Positions 91 through 20,801 of a DNA stretch of 34,381 bases are shown in pieces. Location: assembly GCA_902774995.1 (NCBI GenBank), contig CACYKR010000015.1, positions 1 through 34,381 on the forward strand. Reading direction: 5' to 3'. The DNA is from an uncultured Bacteroidales bacterium. GTDB lineage: Bacteria > Bacteroidota > Bacteroidia > Bacteroidales > Paludibacteraceae. The number at the start of each line of letters is the position of its first letter. Position 1 is the first letter of the stretch. The position numbers were made by a program, and so were the translations under genes. The notes under the pieces are model-generated. The model did no database searches. It worked only from the letters and a program-made list of their open reading frames with translations, and was not told where the DNA came from.

Positions 91-117
91 CAGCGGAAAT
101 AAGCGTTGAGAAATAAA

Positions 118-1560: not shown

Positions 1561-1613
1561 ACGCAATGGGGAAAAATTGACACATTTAGACGCAATGGGG
1601 AAAAATTGACACC
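1556..1613 (+). repeat. Tandem duplication, 2 x 29 bp, covering the end of the Dcu gene
   Basis: Two adjacent 29-bp units (1556-1584 and 1585-1613) differ only at the last base. Each begins tttagacgcaatgggg and ends aaaaattgacac. The first unit contains the stop codon of the transporter gene. Looser copies of a second word, aaaactttgca followed by cgtaaa, follow at 1615 and 1646. Confidence 0.9.
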
Positions 1614-1670
1614 AAAACTTTGCAATTCGTAAATTTTTAAGTCTAAAACTTTGCACTGCGTAAAAATTTG

Positions 1671-1702
1671 CGCGTATGCCTTGTGCGTACGCGTTTTTTT
1701 TT
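1671..1702 (+). terminator. Intrinsic terminator after the Dcu gene
   Basis: A stem of nine pairs (cgcgtatgc, loop cttgt, gcgtacgcg; one T-G wobble) is followed directly by nine T residues. The loop contains the TTG -33 element of the next promoter, so terminator and promoter overlap physically. Confidence 0.8.
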
Positions 1703-1711
1703 GTAACTTTG
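1681..1711 (+). promoter_or_regulatory. Promoter of the first secreted CTD-protein gene
   Basis: TTG at 1681-1683 and TAACTTTG at 1704-1711 have a 20-nt spacer. The spacer contains the right arm and T-run of the upstream terminator. The leader before the ATG at 1758 is about 40 nt and AT-rich. Confidence 0.75.
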
Positions 1712-1757
1712 CACACGAAGAATGGTTTTTTAAGAACACACTAACACTAAAATACAA

Positions 1758-3242: not shown

Positions 3243-3254
3243 ACAAATACAAAA

Positions 3255-3416
3255 ATGAGTAAATGTGCAAATATGAAAATGCGTAATTACATAACTCCCT
3301 CCGTGGAGATGCAGCCGGTACAGGCGGTGGGACTGATATTAAGTACCAGCTTTGAGACCAGTACTGAGGGCGGCGACCAGAATTCTGCACAGTCCGCAAA
3401 GCGACGGGTGTTCTAA
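3255..3416 (+). CDS. Small ORF, 53 aa, possible paralogue of the ORF at 18270
   Basis: An ATG-initiated ORF starts 12 nt after the preceding stop. The central part reads NYITPSVEMQPVQAVGLILS and the end is EGGDQNSAQSAKRRVF. The 52-aa ORF at 18270 has the same plan: Tyr, Pro, Glu-Met/Val, x-Pro, a short hydrophobic patch ending in Ser, then a GG(D/N)xxS segment, Ala and a final Phe. Both lie directly behind genes for proteins with the same C-terminal tail. There is no signal peptide and no Cys-based motif. Internal ATGs at 3273 and 3279 are equally possible starts. Function is unknown. It could be a leader-type peptide, a secretion accessory or a small regulator. That it is a gene rests on the shared pattern and position. 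Confidence 0.6.
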   Translation: MSKCANMKMRNYITPSVEMQPVQAVGLILSTSFETSTEGGDQNSAQSAKRRVF

Positions 3417-3476
3417 CGACACAGGCAAGCGGCAATCCGCACAATTGGTTATTAATCAAAACTAAAAATAACAACA

Positions 3477-6400: not shown

Positions 6401-9400
6401 CGACTCGGTAGGCGTGACACGCGCGGAATACTACAAGAAACGCATCATCATCTACCCGGATGTGAATACCGGCGAGTATTATGTGGATCTCTTTCCTGTC
6501 AAATACAAAATCACCCAGGCTACCGCCAAGGGCTACGCTACGCTCTACGCGGAGGGCAAGACAGGCGGGACGATCGACCTGACCGAAGCGCCGCTTCATC
6601 AGCGAACCAACACCCTGGACGGCAAAGAGGTGGATTACAACGAGAGCTATAACATCACCTACCACAGTCCTATCTCCGTATCCTGCACCCAGCTGCTATT
6701 CGGCATGCCGCTGCCTTATTACGGAGAGAAGACCATCACCCGCCAGAATATCCGGAACCAAAAAATCGAGGTGCCGGTAGTAGAACGGCAGGCGGACGGG
6801 TCGTACAGCTACCTCTTCGGCGCGCCGGTATTCAATTCGGACACCTATCAGTTCCGCGTGACGGCGCAGGAGAACTATTACTATAACAACGAACCTACTT
6901 CGGCCCGCCACGAGACAGTGCGTCTGCAGGGCGGTACGCTCAAGGTCTATAACGGGCTCTATGACGCCCCGAACACCGAGATCCAGACCCATGAGTTGGA
7001 CACCCTGGGCCAGGCGGTATTCACTATTCCGATAGACTATGTATCGTTCATCAAGACAGGCGAGGAAGCGCTGCGCGTGCTCGACCTCTCGGTAGAATAC
7101 CAGGGAGCGTATATCGAGAGCCAGGCGTTGCGCGCCTATGTGACAGGCGACAGGCTCAAAGGACAGGAGTACACCGCCTCCACCCATGGCGACGTGGTTC
7201 TGCTGGATGTACTGCGTGACCCTCCCGGAACGGGCAGCTCCGCATACCTGGAGGCCGGTTCGTCCTACAGCTATACCTGCGCTACGGATTTCAAACTGAC
7301 CTTCGGTCTGGATATCACTCTCAAATACGGCGCCGGCGCCAATATCTATATGGGTGCTTTTGCCGGCATGGGCGGCGGTGTATGGACCGGTATGCCTACC
7401 GAGGTAGCGTCCAACTATTCGCTCTCGCTGCCTATCACCAGTTCCTTTGTATATAAGCATAACGGCACTTATACCTTCACTACCTCCGAGCGTATCACCA
7501 CCTCGAGTGATTTCCTCTCGGTAGGCGCAGACGCGGATGTGTTCATCGGCGCCACCCAGAACGTACTCTACGGAGCCATGGATGCCGTACAGCCGCTCGA
7601 CTCGCTGACCTATGTCACGCTTGCAGCGCGCGCCGCCAACGGCACCATGCGGACCATTGCCGAAGGCAGGGATGCCTCCGGGCAGAAATACTACCTCGTC
7701 ATCGGTACCGAGTTAGGAGCCAAATCCTATATCAGCTCCACCTTCGTGCATACCCAGAGCTATATCGAGCGCACTTTGTTGCCGCAGCTCATCCAGCAGC
7801 GTGACGCGCTCCTGATGACAGGCGACAGCGCTACGGTAGCGTCCATCGCGGTTTCCACCGGCAAACCGGCCTACTGGAGCAAGGTATCGCCCGAGGACGA
7901 GAACTTTGGTATGGAGGGCTACTACGAGATGATCCTGCCGGACAACAGCAGGCTCTACGACGACGAGGTAGCCGCCTACAACCGCCAGTACGTCAACTGG
8001 TTCGGATTGCTCATCAAGAACGAGCATGAGAAGATCGACGCCCTCCGCGGATCGAGCAGAGAACTGGTAGGCACCTGGTCCATGGGCGGCGCTACCACCG
8101 TGACGCACTCCGAGAGCTACAACTCCACCAGCTCCGTTTATGCCAAATTCACCTACCCGGGCTTGTCGCTCAATACGGCACTGCCCAAAGGCGACGCCAC
8201 GATGATCATGGGCGAAAAAGCCGGCATGGACAAACTGATGCAGACCGCCTTCAAGCAGAAGGACACCGGCGAGAACAAACCGTTAGAGGTACTGGGCAAG
8301 ACCGCTTCCGCTACCTGGAAGTTCGAGTTCACGCCTATCTTCAATATGGACTGGAACATGAGTCCCGCCACCAGCTCCAGCAGCAAAACCAAATCGACCG
8401 GATTCACGCTCAAGGGCGATGATTTCGCTTACGAGCATATCAATGTGTCCGTCTATCGCGTAGTGGACAAGAACGACCGTTTCAACGACGCAACGGAAGA
8501 AAACCGCGATTTCACCGATGCCGGCAACAAGTACCGCTACGGTTCGTATGTCTATTTCCTCAACGGCGGTGCTACCCGCTGCCCCTGGGAGGGTCCGGAC
8601 TCCACGCGCTTCTACACGCCGAAAGTGCCCCTCTCCGCCGGTACGCTCAAGCTGGAGAACCCCAAACTGGATATCGACATTCACGAGCGCAGCAATGTGC
8701 CGGTGGACCAGCCTGCCGTATTCTACGTCCGTCTCAGCAACGAGAGCGAAGTACCTTACGGCGACGGACCTATCAAATTCAACCTCAGGCTCCAGAACGG
8801 CTGCAACCCCAAGGGCGCCAAAATCATGATTGACGGCGAGGCGCTGTTAGAGCAGGGACGCGATCTCTACCTCACGCGTGCGAACGTTATAACAAAGCGC
8901 GTGGAGGTGTACGCGGGCGAGGGATATGATTTCGAGAACCTGACCCTCGCGCTGATGTCGTCATGCTCGCTGACCGAACTGGCTAAATGCACCTTCTCCG
9001 TCCATTATATGCCGGTAGCCTGCCCCGTGAATATCTCCGCTCCGCACGCCGACTGGATCATGAACACCCTCTCGCCGCAAGACTCGACAGGATGGTATCT
9101 GCCGGTTGTGATCGACGGATTTGATGTCAACTACAAGAACTTCGACCATATCGAGTTCCAGTACAAACTCGCTACCCGCAGCGACGAGGACTGGGTGAAC
9201 CTCTGCTCCTACTACGCCGAGGACAGCCTCTATGAGCTCGCTTCGGGCAACAAGGCGATGATCCACGGCGGCCGTATCGAGAACGTACGGTTCTACGGCG
9301 AGCGCGACCCGATGGAGCAGCAGTACGACCTCCGCGCCGTAGCTTTCTGCCGCCACGGTAACGGATTTATCACCCGCGCTTCGGAAGTAATACGCGGTAT

Positions 9401-12400
9401 CAAGGATACGCGCCCGCCACGCGTATTCGGAGAACCCGAACCCGCCGATGCCATACTCGGCGTAGGCGACAATTTCAAACTGCGGTTCAACGAACCTATT
9501 GCCGGCAATTACCTTGACGAGGACAACAACTTCCAAATAACCGGTTACACCAACGAATCCGGCATCACCACCGGTACCTCGCTTCATTTCGACGGTACGG
9601 AGGAATCCTATGCCGAATCGAAGGTGCTCCGTTCGTTCCTGAACAAGTCGTTCTCCATCGATATGATGATCCGGCCGACAGACGCGAACAAGACTTCCTT
9701 CCCCTTCATCTACCGATCCGACAAGACACTGACGTATCTGGTATTGTCCCAGAACATGCTGGGGCTGGGATATAACCTCTTCGGCGGCGCTTCCAAGTCA
9801 CTGCCGATCCCGGAGCCTATGACGTCCTTCACCCGCGTCGTAGTGACCTACGACCATACGACCCGCAAGGTACGCTATTTCGTAGGCACCCAGGAGATCA
9901 CCGATCCGAATGATGCGCCCTTCAAGGAAGGGGCTCCGGTTTCCTCCGGCAGCGCGCCTATCTGTCTGGGAAAGAGCTTTGAAGGAAACATGATGGAGGT
10001 ACGCCTCTGGTCCAAAGCGCTGACGCCGGAAGAGATAGCGGAAACCCATATGCGCCGCCTGACAGGATACGAGAAAGAGCTGATCGCCTATTACCCCATG
10101 AACGAAGGTATCGGCGATGTGGTTTACGACAAAGCGACGGGGGCTACCCTCTATACCCACGGCGCCACCTGGGAACACCAGAAAGGCATCTCGCTCCGTC
10201 TGGAGAAAGACCAGCCTGTCCGGCTGGACGACCAACTCATGAGCCGTTCCTCCAAGCAGGACGAGACACTCATGTTCTGGTTCAAGACCGCCGGAAAGGG
10301 TACGCTCTTCACCGCCGGGCGCACCGACGAGACGCAGGGCACCGAGATAGCGGTTACCGACGGAGGCATCACCCTCTATTCCGACAACGCCTACTGGACC
10401 CTGCCCGGCACGTACGACGATGACGAATGGCACCATTTCGCCCTCGCCGTCAACCGCACTTACAATAACGTAGCGGTCTATGTGGACGACCATCTCAAAC
10501 AGACTTTCGCCGCAACCAAATTAGGCGCCGTCTCCGGCTCCATGTACCTTGGCGGAAAGGACTTCGAAGGCCATATCGACCAGTTCGCCGTCTTCGAGCA
10601 GGCCCTGCCCAAATCGCTGTTAGAGTCCTTCGGTACGATTTCTCCTTCCGGCGACGAGATGGGTCTGATGGCATACCTGCCTTTCCAGGAGATGAAGGAG
10701 AACGGCAACGGTATCTACGAGCAGGTCTTCTCCGTCAACGACCAGCGTATCCGGACCGTCAACGGCACCGTGGTGGATAAGAAAAACCCGGTTATACTGG
10801 ACGACCCCGCTACGCTCCATCCGGACAGGACGCAGTGCGCTCCCGTATCGGACATGGGCAAACTGACCAAGATGAATTTCGACTGGGCGTTCAACGGCGA
10901 CGAGCTGCTCGTCAATCTCAACATGCAGGACCGCGAGATCAACAAACAGACCATCTATGTCACCGTCCGCGACGTGGAGGACCTGAACGGCAACCCGATG
11001 GTATCGCCTGTCACCTGGACCGCCTTTGTCGATAAGAACGCCCTCAAATGGGAAGAGCGGACCATCCGGATGCATGCCATCTATGGCGAAGAGACCAACG
11101 GAGTAGCGTATGTCACCCGCGTAATCAACCACTCCGGCAAACGCCATCCGTACAGCATTGAGTCCCTGCCCGAATGGCTCACGGTGAACGCCGCCTACGG
11201 CACCATCAACCCCACGGAGGAGCTCTATCTCACTTTCTCCGCCAATACGGACATGGCTCCCGGAGTATATGAGGACATCGTCTATGTCACCGACGAGAAC
11301 GGACTATCCGAGCCTATGCGCGTGGAACTGACCATCGAGGCGGTAGCGCCCTACGAGGAGATTGACGAGCACAAGTATCCGCTCAACATGTCCGTTTGCG
11401 CACAAGTCAAACTGAACGACACCGAATACGACACCGACCCCAACGACATCGTCTATGCCTTCTACCAGAACGAGTGCGTCGGTATGGATCATGTGTCCTT
11501 CAACGAATCGACCCATAAATCCAAAGTATTCCTGACGGTCCATGGCGTGGATGAGATGAACCGCAAGCCGATACGCTTCCAGCTCTGGCAGGCTTCGACC
11601 GGCAGAGTCTTTGACCTGACCACCAACCGCAATGTCATCTTCGCACACGGCTTCGTCTATAACTGCGGCGACACCGACCCGCTGATTCTGACCACCTACG
11701 GCAGCGAGATGCAGGCTATTGAACTAGAGCCGGGATGGAACTGGATATCCGTCAATCTGGATTTGAAATCCTCCGGCGGCAAACTCGCCAACTGTCTCAC
11801 CGCCAACGAGCCCTGGACGGAAGGCGACCAGATCAAGAACCCCCATTCCCGCCTGTTCAGCACCTACAGCGAGACCTCCGGTACCTTCGTCGGAACGCTG
11901 GACGCGCTCCATTACTCGAACATGTACATGGTTTATTCCCAGACGGGCAACACCATGCGCATCTCCGGAGACACGCTCGCCGAAGACTCCATGAAAATCA
12001 AAGTCCGCGGAGACGGACAATGGAGCCTGATGCCGTGTCTATTCAACCGCACCACGCCTATCTCCGAGGCTCTGGCAGGCTACTTCCAGTACGCCAAACC
12101 GGGCGACCTCATCAAGGCGCACAACCGCTTTGCCACCTTCTCCGAGGACAAGCGATGGGAAGGTAACCTGACCGCCCTCCGGCCTGGCGAAGGATACCTC
12201 TTCCGCCGTCTGGGATTAGGCACAGTGGAGATACCGTTCTATCACCAGACGACCTCGCATGCGCCTAAGAGAGCACCGGGAGAGAAGCCCAAGGCGTTCA
12301 CCAACGCCCATGCGGCCGCCAACATGACCATGATCGCGAAGGTACAAGGAGAGCATGTACAAGGTACGAAGGTGATGGTATATGCAGGCGACGAACTCGC

Positions 12401-12695
12401 CGGCGTAGCTGAACCGATAGATTCAATCTATTTCATCACCATCCAGAGCGATAAAGTCGGGGAGGCGTTACGCTTCGAGACGGAAGACGGCACACCGCTG
12501 AGGGTTCAGACGGGAAATGACCAAATGACAAATGGTCAAATGGTAAATGTACCTGATGCACACCACGGAACGCTCAAAGCACCGGTCATCCTGATTCCGA
12601 CGGACGCAAGCCGGCCGTATAAGGTGATTGAAAACAACCATGTAGTAATAATTCGAAACAATGAGAAATATGATGTTACGGGCAAAAAACTTTAG
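3477..12695 (+). CDS. Giant secreted multidomain protein (3072 aa) with LamG domains and CTD-like tail
   Basis: A signal peptide (residues about 1-25, MKKVILYLVAVVALASAP) starts the protein. Recognisable parts in order are two carboxypeptidase-regulatory-like beta-sandwiches (about 708-772, with GKVSGYIRYEDESACPGVTV and TDEDGYYLLDSL; and 805-870, with SGRVLFENSTVPVRDVQF), a long unassigned region including a Gly/Ser-rich stretch near 1270-1420, an SbsA/Big_5-like Ig segment (about 1977-2030, TRPPRVFGEPEPAD), two LamG/concanavalin-like folds (about 2034-2225 and 2237-2382, with DDEWHHFALAVNRTYNNVAV), a BACON-like segment (about 2532-2620), and two copies of a module also found in the next gene (about 2634-2720 and 2949-3020). 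The last 24 residues (KVIENNHVVIIRNNEKYDV, TGKKL) form the tail shared with two other proteins. LamG and Ig folds suggest binding of glycans or host and diet polymers, but no catalytic domain was recognised. It is probably exported through the type IX system. The start 60 nt after the small ORF suggests one operon from 1758 on. Confidence 0.8.
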   Translation: MKKVILYLVAVVALASAPLVNLFARASHGDWYFREEWGGTQYSAYGMGNGKVHYKILVYATGDSKNFWAYSNEEQVNSTSSNVDHGSRCWTHLEGAGDYPNFLIYEADNAEHNRPSGDGGKNPNDRGWVRLKVLSGSIIVTNTYDGEPDYVTADGKWHEFWLKRMGTADWLTYLEFDWIEPAEYANKVYWVGNSVCYRREGSKVSDQARGEQTRTLAKLTGGNPDPAPQLQNPFLYVLNENGTAGYGKIAIPYVSVQKPYRYWINGTGNPIPSEDRAGMVFANSDDVVRSLYVSMEIQRSVDSMQTQVLNSNTVNIPAYHKIHDFAVTSYSHKGASGLSFVNERHKQISWKIYHPRQEELMENDMFEIQRAYHWDYSDAETIGLIPMEYDSLTTDATADKQTYTYLDTAQAAWWNPVENNYKIYYRVRRVSSSQWGWIGHEFVASGAFNPERNYYPAPFLENGTAGFYTPAADFEQSRQLELTIRLFAKETNDGNGSVTKPAYERFYWDENQVLRIRKVLKELGDTIYIEVPNDSIRNAFARLRNSPYSAFNSRDYIDVRYTDVVNTPCVHYEYAAVIDTADVKVKKLYASHAYTEYLPVTGEDLYFTEAANLRTFTATKLEYSDGVLLRWETTEGNVGSYKIETRPAGKETEWTVLEDNYQGRWYKDQTADPTVSPEWEYRLTMTYECNGNIQSDEAVAIGSRNPYGKVSGYIRYEDESACPGVTVTASLTGSGSTVQTVVTDEDGYYLLDSLLYGGGYTYSIQPTGQTAEFRFNNTSSQTATVTLGPDNSIRENIHFTNISSVPFSGRVLFENSTVPVRDVQFLLNGVPVKNGTSYYKTDASGKFEFCVPKNSAFTLQAYKEGHTFAGDGFVRVANEVTGEEDSLITLAKRQPAVRIYDRTKVRLIGRLSGGHVQANKPLGFGLSRNNLGDDLKMVFELEGDNISQIVHYPDDLLKDSVTVTFRHEVRNGAETDSVGVTRAEYYKKRIIIYPDVNTGEYYVDLFPVKYKITQATAKGYATLYAEGKTGGTIDLTEAPLHQRTNTLDGKEVDYNESYNITYHSPISVSCTQLLFGMPLPYYGEKTITRQNIRNQKIEVPVVERQADGSYSYLFGAPVFNSDTYQFRVTAQENYYYNNEPTSARHETVRLQGGTLKVYNGLYDAPNTEIQTHELDTLGQAVFTIPIDYVSFIKTGEEALRVLDLSVEYQGAYIESQALRAYVTGDRLKGQEYTASTHGDVVLLDVLRDPPGTGSSAYLEAGSSYSYTCATDFKLTFGLDITLKYGAGANIYMGAFAGMGGGVWTGMPTEVASNYSLSLPITSSFVYKHNGTYTFTTSERITTSSDFLSVGADADVFIGATQNVLYGAMDAVQPLDSLTYVTLAARAANGTMRTIAEGRDASGQKYYLVIGTELGAKSYISSTFVHTQSYIERTLLPQLIQQRDALLMTGDSATVASIAVSTGKPAYWSKVSPEDENFGMEGYYEMILPDNSRLYDDEVAAYNRQYVNWFGLLIKNEHEKIDALRGSSRELVGTWSMGGATTVTHSESYNSTSSVYAKFTYPGLSLNTALPKGDATMIMGEKAGMDKLMQTAFKQKDTGENKPLEVLGKTASATWKFEFTPIFNMDWNMSPATSSSSKTKSTGFTLKGDDFAYEHINVSVYRVVDKNDRFNDATEENRDFTDAGNKYRYGSYVYFLNGGATRCPWEGPDSTRFYTPKVPLSAGTLKLENPKLDIDIHERSNVPVDQPAVFYVRLSNESEVPYGDGPIKFNLRLQNGCNPKGAKIMIDGEALLEQGRDLYLTRANVITKRVEVYAGEGYDFENLTLALMSSCSLTELAKCTFSVHYMPVACPVNISAPHADWIMNTLSPQDSTGWYLPVVIDGFDVNYKNFDHIEFQYKLATRSDEDWVNLCSYYAEDSLYELASGNKAMIHGGRIENVRFYGERDPMEQQYDLRAVAFCRHGNGFITRASEVIRGIKDTRPPRVFGEPEPADAILGVGDNFKLRFNEPIAGNYLDEDNNFQITGYTNESGITTGTSLHFDGTEESYAESKVLRSFLNKSFSIDMMIRPTDANKTSFPFIYRSDKTLTYLVLSQNMLGLGYNLFGGASKSLPIPEPMTSFTRVVVTYDHTTRKVRYFVGTQEITDPNDAPFKEGAPVSSGSAPICLGKSFEGNMMEVRLWSKALTPEEIAETHMRRLTGYEKELIAYYPMNEGIGDVVYDKATGATLYTHGATWEHQKGISLRLEKDQPVRLDDQLMSRSSKQDETLMFWFKTAGKGTLFTAGRTDETQGTEIAVTDGGITLYSDNAYWTLPGTYDDDEWHHFALAVNRTYNNVAVYVDDHLKQTFAATKLGAVSGSMYLGGKDFEGHIDQFAVFEQALPKSLLESFGTISPSGDEMGLMAYLPFQEMKENGNGIYEQVFSVNDQRIRTVNGTVVDKKNPVILDDPATLHPDRTQCAPVSDMGKLTKMNFDWAFNGDELLVNLNMQDREINKQTIYVTVRDVEDLNGNPMVSPVTWTAFVDKNALKWEERTIRMHAIYGEETNGVAYVTRVINHSGKRHPYSIESLPEWLTVNAAYGTINPTEELYLTFSANTDMAPGVYEDIVYVTDENGLSEPMRVELTIEAVAPYEEIDEHKYPLNMSVCAQVKLNDTEYDTDPNDIVYAFYQNECVGMDHVSFNESTHKSKVFLTVHGVDEMNRKPIRFQLWQASTGRVFDLTTNRNVIFAHGFVYNCGDTDPLILTTYGSEMQAIELEPGWNWISVNLDLKSSGGKLANCLTANEPWTEGDQIKNPHSRLFSTYSETSGTFVGTLDALHYSNMYMVYSQTGNTMRISGDTLAEDSMKIKVRGDGQWSLMPCLFNRTTPISEALAGYFQYAKPGDLIKAHNRFATFSEDKRWEGNLTALRPGEGYLFRRLGLGTVEIPFYHQTTSHAPKRAPGEKPKAFTNAHAAANMTMIAKVQGEHVQGTKVMVYAGDELAGVAEPIDSIYFITIQSDKVGEALRFETEDGTPLRVQTGNDQMTNGQMVNVPDAHHGTLKAPVILIPTDASRPYKVIENNHVVIIRNNEKYDVTGKKL

Positions 12696-13143
12696 TACAT
12701 TCGTTCTCTGCACCCTGCTGCTTCTGGCAGCGGGATGCAAGAAGAACGACAGCAACAGCGACGAACCCGCTACCTTGGGAGCCAACGTAGCCAGACCCAC
12801 ATGGACGGCGACGGAGAACTATGACTACACCTCCTCCATGACGGCGGTGGTGAAGGTGGATTTGGCGGCGCAGTACCCTGCTTCCGCCAAGGATTTCGCC
12901 CTGCAAGAGAATGATCTGCTGGGTGCTTTCTCCTCCGACGGAGAGTGTCTCGGCGTGACGAGCTGTCAGGACGGGCTGTTCTTCCTCCTCATTTCCGGTA
13001 CGGAAGGCGCTGTCAGTCTCCGGTACTACTCCGGATACTACAAGAATATCTTTGTAGCGCAGGATGCCCTTACCTTCCGGACCGATGCCATGACCGGAAC
13101 GGTAGCCAAGCCCTTTGTCCCGGTATTCAAAGTAGCGGAATAA
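12661..13143 (+). CDS. Lipoprotein resembling a module of the giant protein
   Basis: The product has 160 residues with a lipoprotein signal: basic start, hydrophobic LLLLAAGC with the lipidated Cys at residue 26, then KKNDSNSDEP as flexible spacer. The remainder is a single domain (SMTAVVKVDL, ENDLLGAFSSDGECLGV, LFFLLISG, FVAQDALTF). It matches in pattern the module seen twice in the giant protein (NMSVCAQVKL, NDIVYAFYQNECVGM, KVFLTVHG; and NMTMIAKVQG, KVMVYAGDELAGV, IYFITIQS). The gene overlaps the 3' end of the giant gene by 35 nt (or 23-26 nt if ATG 12673 or 12670 is used), so translation is probably coupled. A partner or surface anchor for the giant protein is a reasonable guess, not shown. 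No strong terminator follows; only a 3-bp stem before a T6 run near 13171. Confidence 0.8.
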   Translation: MRNMMLRAKNFSTFVLCTLLLLAAGCKKNDSNSDEPATLGANVARPTWTATENYDYTSSMTAVVKVDLAAQYPASAKDFALQENDLLGAFSSDGECLGVTSCQDGLFFLLISGTEGAVSLRYYSGYYKNIFVAQDALTFRTDAMTGTVAKPFVPVFKVAE

Positions 13144-13188
13144 GACGGGATTGCGAAAAGGGGGACGCTGTTTTTTGGGTAGATTTAT

Positions 13189-13219
13189 TTGCATAATTCA
13201 AAAAAAAACACTACCTTTG
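13189..13219 (+). promoter_or_regulatory. Orphan promoter and leader ahead of the inverted repeat
   Basis: TTG at 13189-13191 and TACCTTTG at 13212-13219 have a 20-nt spacer, a consensus match. The following leader has a ccgctt/aagcgg hairpin (13223-13242 region) and runs to an ATG at 13282 whose first five codons equal those of gpmI (ATGAGTAAAGCATTA). After that the sequence turns back on itself in a palindrome, so the promoter now drives no recognisable gene. It is likely the former leader of gpmI or of a lost surface-protein gene. Its start TTTGCACCCG(C/T)TTTTGA also matches the BspA leader at 13710. Confidence 0.65.
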
Positions 13220-13279
13220 CACCCGCTTTTGACAGAAGCGGTAACCCACTACCAAAACAGCACATACTAAACACTACAG

Positions 13280-13314
13280 ATATGAGTAAAGCATTAATAA
13301 TGCTTTACTCATAT
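13280..13314. repeat. Near-perfect palindrome at the left cassette junction
   Basis: Two 17-nt arms (13280-13296 and 13298-13314) are exact reverse complements around the single base 13297. Each arm is the gpmI start region (atATGAGTAAAGCATTA). The gpmI gene itself carries the short quasi-palindrome CATTATTAATG at 19212-19222, where a fold-back could have occurred. Confidence 0.95.
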
Positions 13315-13369
13315 TTACGTTTTTTTAGTTCGTTACCAATTTTGCAGGTGCAAAATTACTACAAATTTT
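13292..13369 (-). repeat. Left copy of a 78-bp perfect inverted repeat (IR-L)
   Basis: The reverse complement is identical over 78 bp to 19145-19222, and weaker similarity continues for about 20-25 bp on the distal side. The copy carries a complete outward (leftward) promoter: TTG at 13379-13381, a 20-nt spacer, TAATTTTG at 13351-13358, and the gpmI start codon. Leftward transcription would give only a 12-codon peptide and then antisense RNA over the orphan leader. Confidence 0.95.
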
Positions 13370-13684
13370 TCAAATTTGCAAGATTTTTAGCAAAAAAAAA
13401 CAGTCTAAGCTCGCTTAAGTATGGTTTTATTTGCTAAAAAGATTGTAGTTTGCACGAAAGTGCGACCGTAAATTCGGCGGGAGCCCGCTTGCGGGAGGGC
13501 CGAAGTTACTGCAAATATTTTTTTTGACATATGTAAATAATTCTTTCTTTTTAGTCCAAAAACATCCCAATACTCCCTCAAATCCTATTGGTCAATATTG
13601 TTGTTCATTTTGTAAACTAAACTTTGCAAAATAAATTTTTATGCTACTAAAAAGACCTTTTTTATAACATTTTGTATATTTTAC
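13370..13684. other. AT-rich gene-free stretch with one strong hairpin
   Basis: No convincing ORF lies between IR-L and the BspA promoter. The stretch holds a TAAGC/GCTTA mini-hairpin near 13406-13417, a GCAC-GAAA-GTGC hairpin at 13452-13463, a long GC-rich hairpin (13467-13509) with a downstream T-run, and otherwise AT-rich DNA. Confidence 0.6.
13467..13524 (+). terminator. GC-rich hairpin with T-run, terminator-like
   Basis: An outer stem (GTAA, one mismatch, TTCGGC pairing with GCCGAA, mismatch, TTAC) and an inner stem (CCCGC, TT, GCGGG) are followed by tattttttttg. Flanking TTTGCA and TGCAAA can also pair. It could stop read-through from the orphan promoter before the BspA gene, or be part of a small structured RNA from that promoter. 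Confidence 0.5.
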
Positions 13685-13715
13685 TTGCATATATTAAATA
13701 AATTTGATAATTTTG
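13685..13715 (+). promoter_or_regulatory. Promoter of the BspA-like gene
   Basis: TTG at 13685-13687 and TAATTTTG at 13708-13715 are separated by 20 nt. A leader of about 60 nt precedes the ATG at 13783. Confidence 0.8.
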
Positions 13716-13782
13716 CACCCGTTTTTGAACAAAAGACATCACCTACTTATAATTTACCACAGAAACTTAAATACTATCGCAT

Positions 13783-16700
13783 ATGAAAAAAACTCTACTT
13801 TCTTTAATTACAATCACATTCTTCCTCTGCGAAGCGTCTTTTACTGGGGGGGGTACTGCGTTCGCAGCGACTTCATACACACTTTCGGCTGACAATAAGA
13901 CACTTACCATCACCGGAAGTGGAGCAATGACGGATTGGATAAGCAGCAATTATACAAACGCAACAACAGGCCGTGGATGGCAAAGCAATATTGGCACTAT
14001 TACCAAAATAGTTATTAGTGAAGGAGTATCATCTGTTGGTGCTTATGCTTTCCGCGGAATGACCGAGGTTACTACAGTTGAGGTAGCCAGTACTGTTACA
14101 TCCATTGGTTCTTATGCTTTTTATGGTTGTAGTAAATTAGCTACCGTTAAGTTTGGAACAAGCTCAACGTATAAGTGCAATATTGATACGATTCAAAATT
14201 ATGCATTTTACTCTTGTACAGCAGTAGCAAATGTATATTGCTACGGAAGTAGTACTACCGACGCTATGGCAAGATGGCTAAAGATAGGTTTTTATGCTGA
14301 TACTTCCAATCCGTTTTATGCTTCTACGGTTGCCACAAAATATTTCTATACGAACACTTCAAGGCAAACATCCTTAACAACGACTAATTTAAGTGGTGCA
14401 ACTAAAATCAAACAATATGCTTTTTATAACAACACGTCATTAACCGCTATTACATTACCGACAACTATAACATGGATTGGTAAGAAAGCTTTTGCTAAGT
14501 GTAGTAATAGTAGTTTTACAAAAATTGCTATTCCAGAGAATGTAACTATTTGCGGTGAAGATGTATTTACAGGTTGCAAAGCTTTGACATCTGTTACATG
14601 GAATGCTACCAATTGTACAAAATATCTACCTAATAATACTTTTACTACAAGTTACAATCCATTTAGTAATTCTACCCTCAGCGGGCAAATTACTTCTTTT
14701 ACATTCGGTGATAATGTCGAAGCTATTCCGCCTGCCATTTGTAGTAAGATGTCAAATTTGACATCCATTGTGATTCCTGCGAGTGTGACATCAATTGGCA
14801 CTGAAACATTTAAGGGGTGCACCGGTTTGACATCTATTGTCTCTTTGTCAACTACACCACCCGAGGTGGCAAATGTGAATGCGTTTACGAATGTAACGAA
14901 ATCGATTCCGGTGGTTGTAACTTCTGCAGATGCAGTTACTGCGTATGAAGGTGCTACTGGCTGGAGTGATTTTACCAATATTACAACCGTTTTGTCTGGT
15001 GCTTGCGGAACAAGCGCAACGTTTGAATTGGATTTTGCAACAGGCACATTGACTATTTCCGGTACTGGGGCAATGACTGATTATGCTACTTCCGACAGTA
15101 ATCGTTCGCCGTGGTATAAATACAATAGTTACATTACAGATATAGTTGTAAATAGCGGTATCACCACCATAGGAAATGCTGCTTTTGCCAACTGCGATGT
15201 AGAGACTTGTACGATACCAGCTTCCGTAACCAATTTTGTTACACAGTGTTTCTTTGGGGCTAAAGTAAACAAATTGTACTATGGAGGCACGCTTAGTCAA
15301 TGGTGTAATATTACGCGTGGTACGAATAATCCTCACCCCGTAACACAAAAATTTTACATCAGTAGTTCAGAAAAAACAAGTTTGACATTACCAAGTAATT
15401 CCTCTTTGGCTGCCAAAGCATTCATGAATATGAAAGGTATTACTGCGGTTACAATTCCTGCTGCGGTAACAACCATTGGTGCAGATGCATTTTCCGGTTG
15501 CAGCAATATAGCTAATGTGTATTATCAAGGTACTCTGGCACAGTGGTGCGCAATTAGTTTCTCTAATGATGCCGAAGCTAATCCTGCATTTAATGGTGCA
15601 AGTTTACATATTGATGATAGTGATATAAATGATGGCGCTGTATATGTGAAAGATGAGATTACATCTATCGGTAATTATGTCTTTTGCGGTGTAACGAATT
15701 ATACCTCTATAGACATTAATGCAGCAACAACCGTAGGTGCATATACATTTAAGAATTGTACGGCTCAGATCTTGTATAGAGGTTCTGCCAGCGGAACAAG
15801 TGGTAATGTATCGTGGACTTGGGATGATGGTGTCTTGACCTTGACAGGTACTGGCACAATGACGAATTATACATCCGCCGCTAATGTTCCCTGGACTCCT
15901 TACATGGGAAGTACGCATGAGATTATAGTAGAGGATGGTATAACTTCTATTGGTAATTATGCATTTAATAGCCCTGCTGCTTCTCCGGTTACTATTACAT
16001 TACCTTCTTCCGGATTAAAGACGATAGGTAATTCTTCTTTTAGCGGATTGACAACTTTGCGTGAATTGACTATACCAAACGGGGTGACAACTATCGGAAC
16101 GAATGCGTTTAGTAGTTGTACAAATTTGGAAAAAATCTATTGTCCTTCAACAGTTCCGGCTTTGACGAATGCGGCGGGTGGAGGCTATACCGTTTACAAT
16201 AGTTTTGCTAGCAATGCGCCATTCTATGTGTTGCCTGCGTCTTATTCGTCTTATGCTGGTTCTGCTTGGACAAGTTTTGGCTCTAATTTCTTTATATATG
16301 GTGACTGTGGTGCGAGTGGAGATAATGTACAATGGGTATTGGCTAAAAAAACAGATACTCTTACCATCTCTGGTACAGGGGCAATTAAGAACTATACAAG
16401 CGCAAGTAGTGTTCCTTGGTATAGTTTCCGTTCGGATATAAAGGCAATTATGATTGAAGGCGGAGTAACAACTATCGGCAACTATGCATTCTATTGTTGT
16501 GATAATGCCTTATTTACTTCAATCTCTATTCCGGAAGGAGTAACGGGTCTTGGTAATAGTGCTTTCTACAGTTGTACCTCTTTAGCGTCCGTAACTTTAC
16601 CCAGCACGCTTGTTTCCATCGGTAGTAATGCGTTCCATTCAAATGCATTGACTTCTATTTCCATTCCCAATAGCGTAACTTCTATAGGGTCTTATGCGTT

Positions 16701-18246
16701 TAAGGATTGTTCCTCGCTTGAGTCCGTAAGTCTTTCCAATATTACTGTTCTTAACGAAGAAGTATTCTCCGGTTGTTCTGCATTGGAATCTATTGCATTG
16801 CCTGCTTCATTGACTACAATCAATAGATATGCATTCAAAAATTGCAGTTCATTAACAAGTATTACTATTCCGGAGAATGTAACTACAATTACCTGTGTCT
16901 CCGGTAGTTCAGCTTATTCTACATTCGCAGGCTGCACCTCGTTAGCATCCGTTGAATGGAATGCACGCCATTGTGGTGGATTTACACGTGTGGGGCAATA
17001 TCAGGAATATGCAACGCCTTTTGAAGCAATCAAAGCAAACATTTCCTCTTTCACTTTTGGCGAAAATGTGGAGCATATTCCTGCTTATCTTTGCCACGGC
17101 ATGACGGGCTTGGAATCCATCACTATTCCTTCATCGGTAAGCTCTATAGGGGCATATGCCTTTGACGGCTGCACGGGTATTACCTCTGTTGCCTCCAATG
17201 CGACCATTCCTCCTACTTTGGCAAGTGGTGCATTCTCTTCGCCGTCCACCAAGAAACTCTACATCCCGCATGACGTTGATGTAAAAGCCGCATATCGTGC
17301 AGCGAGTGGATGGAACTCCTTCACCGAGGCGAACACCTTCCCGAAGATTGTGCAGTTTGACCTCAACGGCAAGTCCGGCACGATCCCGGATCCGCAGTTC
17401 TTCGATGATAAAACTTCGAAGGCTGCTGCACCTGCTATTCCTGCGGATGATGGCTATTATACATTCGATCAATGGACTACAGACGCCTCAGGCGCATCGC
17501 CCTTTACGTTCGCTTCAACCAATATCACTTCCGATCTCACCCTCTATGCCCAATGGACATTGAATGGTCTTGCACTCGACGAGAATGCCGATAATGCATC
17601 GCTCCTTGCGGCGTACGACGGTCTGACGACCGATGTAAGTATGATCCGCAGTTTGACCAATGTGCAGTATAATACCTTCTGTCTGCCGTTCAGCCTGAGC
17701 GCGGAGGTAATGACAGAGAAGTTCGGTGCCGGCTATGACTTGGAAGAGCTGACGGGTGTGGCTTATAACGCAGGAGAGCTGACGCTCGAGTTCACAAAAC
17801 GCGATGAACTGGAGGCAGGCAAACCTTATTTGTTGCAACCGGTGAACATTGTAGAGAATCCTTCGTTCGCGGAAGTGACTATCAGCAATGCTGCTCCCAG
17901 CGACGGTCTGAATAATGCGTATCTGGCATTCCACGGTATCTACTCGCCGACCGAGCTGGAGGGCGGAAACCATAACCTGCTTTTCCTCGGTGCCGGTAAC
18001 GAACTCTTCTGGCCTGCTACAACGGGTAGTATGAAGGGCTTCCGTGGGTACTTTGAGATAAAGTCACCTGCTCTCGCTGCTGTTAGAGCACGGATTGTGA
18101 AGAAAGAGGATGCTGCAACCGGCATTGAAGAAGTGAGAAGTGAGAACGCTAACGCTGTAAGAAGTGAGAAAATTCTCCGCAGCGGACAGCTCCTCATCCT
18201 CCGCGACGGTAAGACCTATAACGCACAAGGTATGTTGGTAGAATGA
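13783..18246 (+). CDS. BspA-like leucine-rich-repeat surface protein with CTD-like tail
   Basis: The 1487-residue product starts with an export signal (MKKTLLSLITITFFL, ending near TAFA at about residue 28). Residues about 30-1165 are BspA-type (LRR_5) repeats of the form SIGxYAFxxCxxLxxVxIPxxV. They are interrupted at least four times by a blade such as DNKTLTITGSGAMTDW or GTLTISGTGAMTDY. Residues about 1187-1260 are an InlB/Flg_new repeat (FDLNGKSG to LTLYAQW). Then comes the TFCLPF/AGKPYLLQP/MKGFRGYF domain shared with the protein at 1758, and a tail (EKILRSGQLLILRDGKTY then NAQGMLVE). BspA proteins are known adhesins that bind host matrix or other bacteria; ligand and role here are inferred. 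Codons 21-24 (ACT GGG GGG GGT) create a G8 tract in the signal region. Base composition is AT-rich up to about 17.25 kb and GC-rich after it. Confidence 0.9.
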   Translation: MKKTLLSLITITFFLCEASFTGGGTAFAATSYTLSADNKTLTITGSGAMTDWISSNYTNATTGRGWQSNIGTITKIVISEGVSSVGAYAFRGMTEVTTVEVASTVTSIGSYAFYGCSKLATVKFGTSSTYKCNIDTIQNYAFYSCTAVANVYCYGSSTTDAMARWLKIGFYADTSNPFYASTVATKYFYTNTSRQTSLTTTNLSGATKIKQYAFYNNTSLTAITLPTTITWIGKKAFAKCSNSSFTKIAIPENVTICGEDVFTGCKALTSVTWNATNCTKYLPNNTFTTSYNPFSNSTLSGQITSFTFGDNVEAIPPAICSKMSNLTSIVIPASVTSIGTETFKGCTGLTSIVSLSTTPPEVANVNAFTNVTKSIPVVVTSADAVTAYEGATGWSDFTNITTVLSGACGTSATFELDFATGTLTISGTGAMTDYATSDSNRSPWYKYNSYITDIVVNSGITTIGNAAFANCDVETCTIPASVTNFVTQCFFGAKVNKLYYGGTLSQWCNITRGTNNPHPVTQKFYISSSEKTSLTLPSNSSLAAKAFMNMKGITAVTIPAAVTTIGADAFSGCSNIANVYYQGTLAQWCAISFSNDAEANPAFNGASLHIDDSDINDGAVYVKDEITSIGNYVFCGVTNYTSIDINAATTVGAYTFKNCTAQILYRGSASGTSGNVSWTWDDGVLTLTGTGTMTNYTSAANVPWTPYMGSTHEIIVEDGITSIGNYAFNSPAASPVTITLPSSGLKTIGNSSFSGLTTLRELTIPNGVTTIGTNAFSSCTNLEKIYCPSTVPALTNAAGGGYTVYNSFASNAPFYVLPASYSSYAGSAWTSFGSNFFIYGDCGASGDNVQWVLAKKTDTLTISGTGAIKNYTSASSVPWYSFRSDIKAIMIEGGVTTIGNYAFYCCDNALFTSISIPEGVTGLGNSAFYSCTSLASVTLPSTLVSIGSNAFHSNALTSISIPNSVTSIGSYAFKDCSSLESVSLSNITVLNEEVFSGCSALESIALPASLTTINRYAFKNCSSLTSITIPENVTTITCVSGSSAYSTFAGCTSLASVEWNARHCGGFTRVGQYQEYATPFEAIKANISSFTFGENVEHIPAYLCHGMTGLESITIPSSVSSIGAYAFDGCTGITSVASNATIPPTLASGAFSSPSTKKLYIPHDVDVKAAYRAASGWNSFTEANTFPKIVQFDLNGKSGTIPDPQFFDDKTSKAAAPAIPADDGYYTFDQWTTDASGASPFTFASTNITSDLTLYAQWTLNGLALDENADNASLLAAYDGLTTDVSMIRSLTNVQYNTFCLPFSLSAEVMTEKFGAGYDLEELTGVAYNAGELTLEFTKRDELEAGKPYLLQPVNIVENPSFAEVTISNAAPSDGLNNAYLAFHGIYSPTELEGGNHNLLFLGAGNELFWPATTGSMKGFRGYFEIKSPALAAVRARIVKKEDAATGIEEVRSENANAVRSEKILRSGQLLILRDGKTYNAQGMLVE
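13846..13853 (+). repeat. G8 homopolymer in the BspA signal-peptide codons
   Basis: Eight consecutive G residues encode the Gly-Gly-Gly of the export signal. A one-base slip would move translation into a frame that stops near 13892, so the tract could switch the protein off. Confidence 0.9.
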
Positions 18247-18269
18247 TGAAATGTTGAAATGATTAAATG

Positions 18270-18428
18270 ATGAAAGTTATGACAAAGATATATAATTCTC
18301 CTCAAATGGAGGTGCATCCCATCACTCCGCTGTTGATGCTTTGCGCCAGCGGTGCAACAGATCGTGTGTCGTCCAATGTGAATCTGAAAGGAGGTAATAA
18401 CTCCGGAGATGCTACAGAGGCATTTTAA
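18270..18428 (+). CDS. Small ORF, 52 aa, possible paralogue of the ORF at 3255
   Basis: It starts 23 nt after the BspA stop, at an ATG inside a short tgaaatg-type repeat (18244-18276), and ends 30 nt before the lipoprotein gene. The sequence includes KIYNSPQMEVHPITPLLMLC followed by AS, then KGGNNSGDATEAF at the end. The order of features (Tyr, Pro, Met-Glu, Pro, hydrophobic patch, Ser, GG-rich segment, terminal Phe) parallels the ORF at 3255. An alternative start is ATG 18279. No signal peptide is evident. The product is unknown. Two occurrences behind two unrelated CTD-tailed proteins argue that it is real. Confidence 0.6.
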   Translation: MKVMTKIYNSPQMEVHPITPLLMLCASGATDRVSSNVNLKGGNNSGDATEAF

Positions 18429-18458
18429 TAAACTTACTTACATAAAAACAGAAAAGCA

Positions 18459-18950
18459 ATGAAAAAGATTGTATTTGCACTCAGTGCATTGGTGCTCTCG
18501 ATGAGCATGTTAGTCGGTTGTTCCGGCTCGAATGATGGAAACCTCCCCGGTAATCCAGTTGAGATTTCAACTGAAACAGTGAGTAGAATATGGCAGCAGT
18601 ATTCCTCTTCGGTAGATGGAGAATCTTATGTTTATCCGGAGATGTACAGACAGTACTTCGAATTTAGAGCGGATGGACGCCTGCTGGTGTATGATTATGA
18701 CGGTGAGTACAGAGGGTTTAATAACTGGTCGGTAGCTAATGGGATAATATCTATTGTGGATGCAATGGATATTAATGGTTTGCCGGGGAGAATAGATGAG
18801 CAGGATTGGCGAATTATTCAACTGACGGATCAGGCGCTGAAAATTCAGGTAATGGGGGATGGAAGTATAGAAGACAGAGAAGATATTTATATGGTTTTCC
18901 ATCGGCCGACTTCTCTTCCGAACTTCTACGGAAAGCCGACGAATTTATAA
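18459..18950 (+). CDS. Lipoprotein with lipocalin-like domain (hypothetical)
   Basis: The product has 163 residues. The signal peptide ends in a lipobox (MLVGC, lipidated Cys at residue 21) followed by the spacer SGSNDGNLPGN, so the mature protein should sit in the outer or inner membrane. The domain (FEFRADGRLLVYDYDGEY, WSVANGIISIVD, WRIIQLTDQALKIQV) has the strand pattern of small lipocalin-like lipoproteins common in Bacteroidetes, where a display value, a written form and a regression to baseline alternate; this is a weak assignment by pattern. It follows the small ORF at 30 nt spacing and ends at an intrinsic terminator, so BspA, small ORF and lipoprotein form one transcription unit. Composition is AT-rich like the cassette and unlike gpmI. 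Confidence 0.75.
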   Translation: MKKIVFALSALVLSMSMLVGCSGSNDGNLPGNPVEISTETVSRIWQQYSSSVDGESYVYPEMYRQYFEFRADGRLLVYDYDGEYRGFNNWSVANGIISIVDAMDINGLPGRIDEQDWRIIQLTDQALKIQVMGDGSIEDREDIYMVFHRPTSLPNFYGKPTNL

Positions 18951-18967
18951 ACCAATACGAACGAGAA

Positions 18968-18992
18968 ACAGTCACTTCGGTGGCTGTTTTTT
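18968..18992 (+). terminator. Intrinsic terminator of the BspA cassette
   Basis: A stem ACAGTCAC, tetraloop TTCG, GTGGCTGT (one T-G wobble) is followed by six T residues. UUCG tetraloops are exceptionally stable. It lies 17 nt behind the lipoprotein stop. Confidence 0.9.
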
Positions 18993-19132
18993 GATGTTAG
19001 ACAGATAGAACATTGTTAAGTAGGTATCTCCCTCGTATTGCTCAGGTGATGCCCTTGTGATTAACCCGTGTGGGCTTTTGGAACATTTTCACACTAAAAA
19101 AACCATTAAATTTGATTTTTTGTGGCAAAATC

Positions 19133-19163
19133 TTGCATATATGCAAAATTTGTAGTAATTTTG
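19133..19163 (+). promoter_or_regulatory. gpmI promoter inside the right inverted repeat
   Basis: TTG at 19133-19135 and TAATTTTG at 19156-19163 have a 20-nt spacer. The -7 element lies in the perfect 78-bp repeat; the -33 TTG lies just outside it but is preserved in the left copy at the same spacing. Confidence 0.8.
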
Positions 19164-19222
19164 CACCTGCAAAATTGGTAACGAACTAAAAAAACGTAAA
19201 TATGAGTAAAGCATTATTAATG
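19145..19222 (+). repeat. Right copy of the 78-bp perfect inverted repeat (IR-R)
   Basis: This is the exact reverse complement of 13292-13369. It spans the gpmI -7 region, its leader and the first seven codons of gpmI. The first divergence is at 19223, inside codon 8. Confidence 0.95.
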
Positions 19223-20737
19223 ATTTTGGATGGCTGGGGCATCGGTGACAAGAGCAAGTCCGATGTCATCAGCGTGACGCCGACGCCGCACTGGGATGCG
19301 CTGCTGGCGAAATACCCCCATTCGCAGCTGCAAGCCAGCGGAGAGAACGTAGGTCTGCCGGACGGACAGATGGGTAACAGCGAGGTAGGACACCTCAATA
19401 TAGGTGCCGGCCGCGTGGTATATCAAGACCTGGTAAAAATCAACCGCTCCATCCGCGACAACTCCATCATGCAGAACCCCGAGATTATCGCTGCATACAA
19501 AGCGGCACAGGCAGCGGGCAAGAAACTGCACCTGATGGGCCTATGCTCGACGGGCGGCGTACACAGCTCGCTGGACCACCTGTTCAAACTGGTGGAGATA
19601 GCCAAGGAGTACGGCGTAGCGGAGAAGACGTTCGTCCACTGTTTCATGGACGGCCGTGACACCGACCCGCGGAGCGGCAAAGGGTTCGTCAGTGACCTGC
19701 AGAAAGTATGCGATGCCAACGGCGCACATATCGCCTCTATCATCGGCCGCTTCTACGCCATGGACCGTGACAAACGGTGGGAGCGCATCAAAGTGGCATA
19801 TGACCAATTGGTCAACGGTGTAGGTCGTCAGGAGACAGACATGGTAGCTGCCGTACAGGGCTGCTACGACCGCCATACGGAGGAGCACAAGGATACGGAT
19901 GAGTTCATGGAGCCGCTGGTGAACGCCACCTGCGACGGACGGATAGCGGAAGGCGACGTAGTTATCTTCTTCAACTACCGCAACGACCGTGCCAAGGAAA
20001 TCACCATCGTCCTCACCCAGCAGGATATGCCGGAGCAGGGCATGCACACCATCAAGGGGTTGCATTATTGCTGCATGACGCCGTACGACAGTTCGTTCCA
20101 GGGCCTGCACGTGCTCTTCCCGAAAGAGAACGTATCGAACACCCTGGGCGAAGTGGTAAGCAAACTCGGCATGAAACAGCTGCGTATCGCCGAGACGGAG
20201 AAGTTCGCCCACGTGACTTTCTTCTTCAACGGCGGACGCGAAGCGGAATACCCGGGCGAGGAGCGTATATTGATTCCGAGTCCGAAAGTACCGACCTACG
20301 ACCTCAAACCGGAGATGAGTGCGCCGGAGGTGACCGAAGCGCTGGTAGCCGCTATCAAGACGCAGAAATTCGACTATATCACCCTCAACTTCGCCAACGG
20401 CGACATGATCGGTCATACGGGTGTATATGCCGCCATCGAGAAAGCCGTGAAATGCATTGACGAATGCTCGCACAAAGTGATAGAAGCGGCGCTGGAGAAC
20501 GGCTATGAGATCATCGTCATTGCCGACCACGGCAACTGCGACAACGCCATCAACCCCGACGGCACGCCGAATACGGCGCACTCGCTCAACCCCGTGCCCT
20601 TCGTATATATCAGCAAGGACCACGTGAACGCGAAGGTGGAGAACGGCATCCTCGCCGATGTAGCTCCGTCGCTGTGCCATATCATGGGCATCAAGCAGCC
20701 GGAAGAGATGACGGGAAGATGCCTAATCAAAGATTAA
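19202..20737 (+). CDS. gpmI: 2,3-bisphosphoglycerate-independent phosphoglycerate mutase
   Basis: The 511-residue cytoplasmic enzyme interconverts 3- and 2-phosphoglycerate in glycolysis and gluconeogenesis using two Mn ions and a phosphoserine intermediate. Visible hallmarks are LILDGWG-like MILDGWGIG near residue 7, [15 protein letters not shown] with the nucleophile Ser60, [25 protein letters not shown], and the metal site ADHGNCDNA with the later [12 protein letters not shown]. Length is normal for the family. It starts [13 protein letters not shown], and the first seven codons belong to the inverted repeat that bounds the BspA cassette. The gene is GC-rich, unlike the cassette upstream, and ends with a bidirectional terminator shared with the opposite small lipoprotein gene. 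Confidence 0.97.
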
Positions 20738-20747
20738 GTCTCAAGAC

Positions 20748-20783
20748 ACCCCCCGCCCCCTCTCAAAGGGGGAGAAGGGGGAG
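20748..20783. repeat. C-run/G-run intergenic inverted repeat
   Basis: A C-rich stretch (ccccccgccccc) is followed after tctcaaa by ggggg, agaa, ggggg, so the two halves can pair. It sits between the gpmI stop and a GAGATTT array. Confidence 0.6.
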
Positions 20784-20801
20784 ATTTGAGATTTGAGATT
20801 T
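20781..20801 (+). repeat. Heptamer array, 3 perfect copies of GAGATTT
   Basis: Three uninterrupted GAGATTT units. The same heptamer forms another array at 22036-22063 between the PASTA and RluA genes. Confidence 0.9.

Follow-up and report, generated by a model that had tools for sequence, protein, structure and literature searches.

Contig CACYKR010000015.1 of draft assembly GCA_902774995.1, from an uncultured Bacteroidales bacterium of the Paludibacteraceae, carries a surface-protein cassette directly upstream of gpmI, the gene for 2,3-bisphosphoglycerate-independent phosphoglycerate mutase. The cassette contains a gene for a BspA-type leucine-rich-repeat (LRR) surface protein and a small gene, lip2, and its edges form a long perfect inverted repeat. 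The whole contig (34,381 nt; C15 in our numbering) was analysed and is called the window. An earlier inspection of the letters alone (the sequence-only reading) had offered three explanations: an inserted cassette, an invertible surface-antigen segment, or a fold-back product formed at a natural quasi-palindrome in gpmI.

The comparison set was 178 genomes of the genus, including the genome under study (G000), a draft of 114 contigs that is 86.7% complete. Matches to gpmI were found in 163 genomes (among the matches listed). Upstream leaders were read for 32: the 30 best gpmI matches (G000 included), G107 and G064. Genome G107 serves as a proxy for the donor throughout the junction comparison.

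Features of the locus

Features are listed in Table 1. We call the native promoter and leader of gpmI promoter A and leader A, their donor-type counterparts promoter B and leader B, and a dispersed promoter element at the left edge P.

The larger cassette protein (1487 aa) consists of LRR_5 repeats (PF13306, E 1.1e-144, 11 stretches), which places it among BspA-type surface proteins. The lip2 product (163 aa) has no match in Pfam or NCBIfam; it is a putative lipoprotein, judged by a lipobox pattern at the protein start. In a named genome collection, from which records of G000 itself may be excluded, lip2 found one close record and three partial Frankia matches at 43%. A small open reading frame (ORF) had been described between the two genes; there is none among ORFs of at least 80 aa. 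The cassette had also been called AT-richer than its flanks, whose GC content is mostly 0.51-0.58. This holds for 13001-17000 (0.375-0.408) and 18001-19000 (0.437), but not for 17001-18000 (0.510, near the flanks).

Table 1. Features at the cassette and its edges (window coordinates)
Feature	Position	Strand	Remarks
Native gpmI promoter A (TTG, 20 nt, TACCTTTG) and leader A, separated from gpmI by the cassette	13189-13281	+	Consensus promoter 13189-13219
Near-perfect palindrome from the left join: 18-pair hairpin, then a T run on the + strand	13278-13316		Fold -21.3 kcal/mol, z -6.75
17-bp direct repeat, left copy: AT plus the first 15 nt of gpmI	13280-13296	+	
Inverted repeat, left arm: gpmI start, leader B and -7 region in reverse copy	13292-13369	-	
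Left join, CATTA (5 bp): sense gpmI start (native leader) / antisense gpmI start (donor leader)	13292-13296		
13 nt common to P and B of G107; change from gpmI-type to proS-type promoter in the left arm	13357-13369	-	
Dispersed promoter element, P type, reading away from BspA	13358-13512	-	Only G000 copy at E<=1e-10
Consensus promoter upstream of BspA, inside the cassette	13685-13715	+	Within a stretch 96% identical to G107
BspA-type LRR surface protein, 1487 aa	13783-18246	+	Pfam LRR_5
lip2, small putative lipoprotein, 163 aa	18459-18950	+	
Terminator-like hairpin 3' of lip2	18962-18993	+	G107 identity stops at 18992
Donor-type gpmI promoter B and leader B, now before gpmI	19133-19201	+	Promoter 19133-19163; 96% to G107 over 19147-19201
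Inverted repeat, right arm, 78 bp exact	19145-19222	+	
Right join: stretch common to donor type and recipient gpmI; recipient type beyond	19200-19218	+	
gpmI, native	19202-20737	+	TIGR01307

The repeats are as the sequence-only reading had them. The arms are exact reverse complements (78 of 78), the adjacent bases mismatch on both sides, and with mismatches allowed the repeat widens to 13288-13398 and 19116-19226 at 92% identity. The right arm holds the -7 element, the leader and the first seven codons of gpmI. Both arms carry TTG at 20 nt from TANNTTTG (19133-19163 on the plus strand, 13381-13351 on the minus strand). The 17-bp direct repeat is likewise exact, its right copy lying at 19200-19216, 5,920 bases from the left copy start to start.

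No other 78-bp inverted repeat occurs in 29 sequences of at least 5 kb, window included (452,338 bases, 30-base exact seeds); these are relatives of this locus, partly overlapping, and a non-random sample. The others found in that set, of 34 and 31 bp, both flank gpmI in G136. There they are exact pieces of inverted intergenic copies on both sides of the gene (L070 1862-1942 and 3902-3975). In G107 the locus (L069), which holds the same cassette, shows no exact inverted repeat of at least 30 bp, and the palindromic left join is found in one of the 178 genomes, G000 (3 mismatches allowed).

A direct repeat right at the ends of an inverted repeat suggests a transposon that has terminal inverted repeats and duplicated 17 bp of its target. 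We rejected this candidate. The inverted arms overlap the direct repeat and are made of target-gene sequence, BspA and lip2 are not transposases (Pfam, NCBIfam) and the cassette holds no transposase; the G107 locus and the restriction of the palindromic end to one genome also speak against it. We consider it extremely improbable.

Transfer of the cassette

The gene lip2 occurs in three of the 178 genomes: G000, G107 (95% aa identity) and, as a remote copy (36%), G045. Gene order in G107 is proS (leftward; identity checked with TIGR00408), BspA, lip2, gpmI, and matches G000 from BspA rightward. Nucleotide identity to G107 is 94-96% for the upstream region and 5' end of BspA and 86% for 17532-18992 (BspA 3' end through lip2). 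At third codon positions it is 98.2% for lip2 and 89.7% for the first 29 codons of BspA, against 61.4% for gpmI.

The gpmI gene has a different affinity. It is 94.8% identical in nucleotides to that of G136, and in a tree of 32 gpmI genes these two are sisters (support 1.0), while G107 pairs with G168 (0.977). Its first 60 nt are 100% identical to G136 and 87% to G107. From the identity contrasts, the tree and these 60 nt, gpmI is native and the cassette foreign.

Genome G136 shows the arrangement free of the cassette. It lacks lip2, promoter A and its leader stand directly at gpmI, and the genes upstream are different. Positions 13182-13296 of the window align with the G136 gpmI promoter and leader; the alignment takes in the two promoter boxes and also the final 22 nt of the leader, the latter with one difference. 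In G000 the order is promoter A and leader, the first 15 nt of gpmI, then the cassette. Leader A extends to the gpmI start as in G136, with no recipient deletion seen. Among the 32 upstream stretches, compared by reading, leader A stands at gpmI in G136 only, besides the stranded copy of G000. The deletion between the 17-bp copies that the sequence-only reading had imagined would give a product resembling this state before insertion.

The distribution of lip2, the contrast between cassette and gpmI, and G136 together support the first of the three earlier explanations, an inserted cassette. Sequence comparison, which also gives the donor type, the cassette-free sister and the positions of the joins, shows that the cassette came by horizontal transfer from another species of the same genus.

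Two observations concern the surroundings. The end 18951-18992, with the hairpin that follows lip2, recurs at 94-100% over 27-42 nt in seven other genomes of the genus and looks like a shared terminator module. Upstream of gpmI, 16 of the 32 stretches hold the end of a putative smpB-like gene (simple pattern, up to 1.5 kb).

Anatomy of the left edge

Followed along the minus strand in alignment with G107, the left arm proves to be a chimera of three pieces: P element, leader B with the gpmI start, and native leader A. Piece a, from about 13512 down to 13370, is the P element, and 13370-13455 corresponds to the proS-BspA interval of G107. Piece b begins within 13357-13369, where the sequence shifts to the promoter B type and, without a difference from the right arm, continues along leader B and the start of gpmI. 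Piece c begins at the CATTA of 13292-13296; from there on the arm holds the native gpmI start and leader A in reverse complement. The inverted copy is thus bounded by short inverted matches between the parental sequences, 13 nt between P and B (G107 as proxy) and the 5-nt quasi-palindrome. The exact repeat thus ends on one side where the likeness of P and B ceases and on the other at the quasi-palindrome. The identity of 78 in 78 is what a recent fold-back copy should show to its template. With its chimeric arm and its changes within 13 and 5 nt, the left edge looks like the scar of a fold-back at the gpmI quasi-palindrome, as the third earlier explanation had it.

The palindrome itself was considered as a selected terminator and set aside: it folds well, but a terminator scan gave 8 sites against 7.7 expected from shuffles. 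An Rfam search of 12600-20800 at gathering scores returned no named RNA element.

P elements are intergenic and about 120-155 nt long. They consist of a GC-rich hairpin of variable sequence, a conserved part that has inverted symmetry within itself, and then a consensus promoter; copies precede different genes (L139, L045, L046, L047, L058 and others). Sixteen of the 178 genomes were searched at E<=1e-10. Copies number 11 in G164, 8 in G106, 7 in G162, 5 in G114, 3 in G042, 2 each in G107 and G121, and 1 in G000; the other eight genomes, G136, G168 and G109 included, have none at that threshold. Weaker promoter-like matches are common. In G000, 46 sites match the left 141 nt at E<=10 (self included), and 13144-13420 has some match in all 178 genomes (among the matches listed).

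The presence of P before many different genes, and the variability of the proS-gpmI interval among relatives, would also suit an insertion without any fold-back. In that case a donor not represented here had its gpmI divergent beside BspA behind P, the gpmI start was imported as such, and the right arm is a second gpmI promoter. Of the 38 P copies in the seven other genomes that have them, however, none stands directly at gpmI (among the matches listed). The right arm matches the gpmI promoter of G107, and this explanation would still need two gpmI promoters sharing one identical 65-nt leader and start to come together. The CATTA join would be left without an account. We give this explanation little probability.

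The phase-switch question

An exact long inverted repeat enclosing a surface-protein gene suggests a phase-variable segment, with the 78-bp repeats as recombination sites and an invertase or RecA to flip it. Bacteroidales invertons and the invertible promoters controlled by Mpi likewise combine inverted repeats, promoters and surface-protein genes. That gpmI would have a promoter whichever way the cassette lies also suits this explanation. Genome G000 encodes one Mpi-family serine invertase on another contig (C16; NF009949, above the NCBIfam cut-off), and enzymes of the Mpi type act on distant sites in Bacteroides fragilis (PMC4747536). The invertase gene of G000 lies at G000:C16:33132-33554 (L168 1498-2130); in the surrounding 9 kb, two pairs of inverted repeats (14 and 19 bp) are close to it.

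The earlier remark that the window holds no recombinase gene stands for the two families searched: the matches to PF00589 (C14, C17) and PF00239 (C16) all lie outside C15. The two PF00589 proteins best match XerD and XerC, below the cut-offs of those models.

Against a switch stands the position of the BspA promoter, inside the cassette together with its gene. As the sequence-only reading had pointed out, both arms carry a promoter, and gpmI would be predicted to keep one in either orientation. Flipping would switch nothing, because BspA keeps its promoter and gpmI keeps one too; as far as the sequence tells, inversion should not alter expression. The one other close carrier, G107, has the same orientation, so that neither of these two genomes shows an inverted allele. 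The leader and start of gpmI, with promoter P/B sequence, explain both arms with no need of an invertase site. Inverton repeats are described as 10-40 nt (PMC11892184), whereas here they are 78 bp of gene-start and promoter sequence around a 5.8-kb interior that holds gene and promoter together. The B. fragilis Mpi site motif, the only motif tried, is not in the arms: its best match there has 2 mismatches in 10, and the window has 83 sites with at most 2. Homologous inversion through the 78 bp is possible at some rate. The invertible segment of the sequence-only reading finds no support in this comparison, and we consider a phase-variable segment very unlikely.

Proposed route of insertion

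In the donor type, P (for proS, leftward) and B (for gpmI, rightward) flank the cassette and therefore form a natural imperfect inverted repeat. We infer the copying route, and all effects on expression, from the order of the pieces. In our view the BspA-lip2 cassette of a G107-like donor was probably inserted at the first gpmI codons by fold-back copying and template switching.

A single growing strand would have changed template three times. Switch 1: having copied recipient promoter A, its leader and the gpmI start, the strand would pass at the 5-nt CATTA/TAATG to the donor gpmI start in reverse and run backwards along leader B. Switch 2: within the 13 nt common to B and P it would pass to P, and then proceed forward through BspA, lip2 and B. 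Switch 3: at the roughly 17-19 identical bases of the gpmI start it would return to recipient gpmI. The mirror view is a two-step snap-back, in which P would fold on B and be extended to the gpmI start, and the new end would fold at the quasi-palindrome and join the recipient.

The outcome would be a gpmI with the donor promoter, a promoter A stranded 5.9 kb off before a hairpin, and an orphan leftward promoter facing promoter A. Judged from these elements, gpmI should now rely on promoter B. Promoter A is predicted to read into the 18-pair hairpin and T run, and the left-arm promoter would point left, against leader A.

An inverted chimera linking the left flank to the cassette could also be an artefact of amplification, library preparation or assembly. 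The assembly is a fragmented draft, and the 13-nt and 5-nt joins resemble the primings of inverted chimeras at 2-21 nt matches that are reported as the main chimeric product of multiple displacement amplification (PMC1855051). Fold-back within one molecule, however, would leave the same leader on both sides, and here leader A stands against leader B. Both flanks are of the G136-like lineage and meet exactly at the gpmI start, and the assembly has a single gpmI match (among the matches listed). The joins are also shorter than usual assembly k-mers. We regard an artefact as unlikely.

Comparison with known mechanisms

Three published mechanisms resemble parts of the proposed copying route. In bacterial homology-facilitated illegitimate recombination (HFIR), homology serves one end and mostly 3-10 bp of microhomology the other, and a recipient stretch of similar length is usually deleted in exchange (PMC3240628). 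Here too foreign DNA is anchored by homology (19 identical nt at the gpmI start, with recipient-type gpmI after them), and the other end shows the 5-bp microhomology CATTA, though in inverted orientation. Unlike HFIR products, this one has 17 bp duplicated, and at its illegitimate side the anchored side recurs as an inverted copy.

Foldback inversions in yeast arise when extension is primed at short inverted matches and an inverted copy is left behind, and two cases are read as two sequential hairpins (PMC7467729). The present case, by contrast, is bacterial, borders DNA that came from another species, and has been seen in a single genome. In microhomology-mediated break-induced replication, one strand changes template several times at short matches and leaves an inverted piece (PMC2621351). 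The model was made for human rearrangements and would apply here only as a hypothesis.

Several points weigh against fold-back insertion from a G107-like donor. The middle of BspA has no G107 match at E<=1e-5, and G107 is only a proxy for the donor. The stretch 18993-19131, from the lip2 terminator to promoter B, has none at E<=1e-6, which makes the donor G107-like rather than G107 itself; with 18951-19140 as query, G064, G016 and G044 match 33-59 nt only, at the promoter end, at 78-94%. P is not general in the donor group, given its absence at E<=1e-10 from G168, the tree neighbour of G107, and from G109. Some P copies carry a B-like -7 sequence, and therefore the stretch shared in the true donor may exceed 13 nt. 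Each switch position depends on few bases. The recipient deletion usual in HFIR is not visible between leader and gpmI. Upstream of promoter A, G000 and G136 differ; other rearrangements have also occurred there, and the neighbourhood is fluid. The Mpi-family invertase counts on the same side, as do the finding of only one other close carrier and the incomplete, fragmented draft that is the source.

Flanking genes

Within 106-13143 of the window, a group of genes for a 494-aa protein, a giant surface protein and a 160-aa lipoprotein lies after a C4-dicarboxylate transporter gene; in G107 (L149 4833-18096) it lies before that gene. The 160-aa lipoprotein is 90% identical in amino acids to that of G107, the next best being 63% among the matches listed, with a third-position identity of 88%. 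This gene may likewise have been exchanged. An exact 28-bp repeat, its copies 29 bases apart start to start, lies where the transporter gene ends (1556-1612). A remnant of the first lipoprotein gene at the window start had been suspected from a BLAST extension; it was dropped after checking.

Implications

A wider conjecture, which we hold to be doubtful, is that near-identical promoter modules scattered across the genus act, in divergent pairs, as fold-back primers that admit surface cassettes beside essential genes without a recombinase. If it were true, a target gene would receive the donor promoter in the same event that leaves its old promoter stranded behind a new hairpin. A literature search on fold-back and template switching in bacterial horizontal transfer, judged by titles and the beginnings of abstracts, returned no such insertion.

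For the study of surface variation the locus carries a caution: a long perfect inverted repeat round a surface gene need not mean a phase switch. It also gives a base-resolution view of how a surface-protein cassette can move between species of an uncultured Bacteroidales genus and supply a central metabolic gene with a new promoter in place of the old one, as it seems without bringing its own recombinase.

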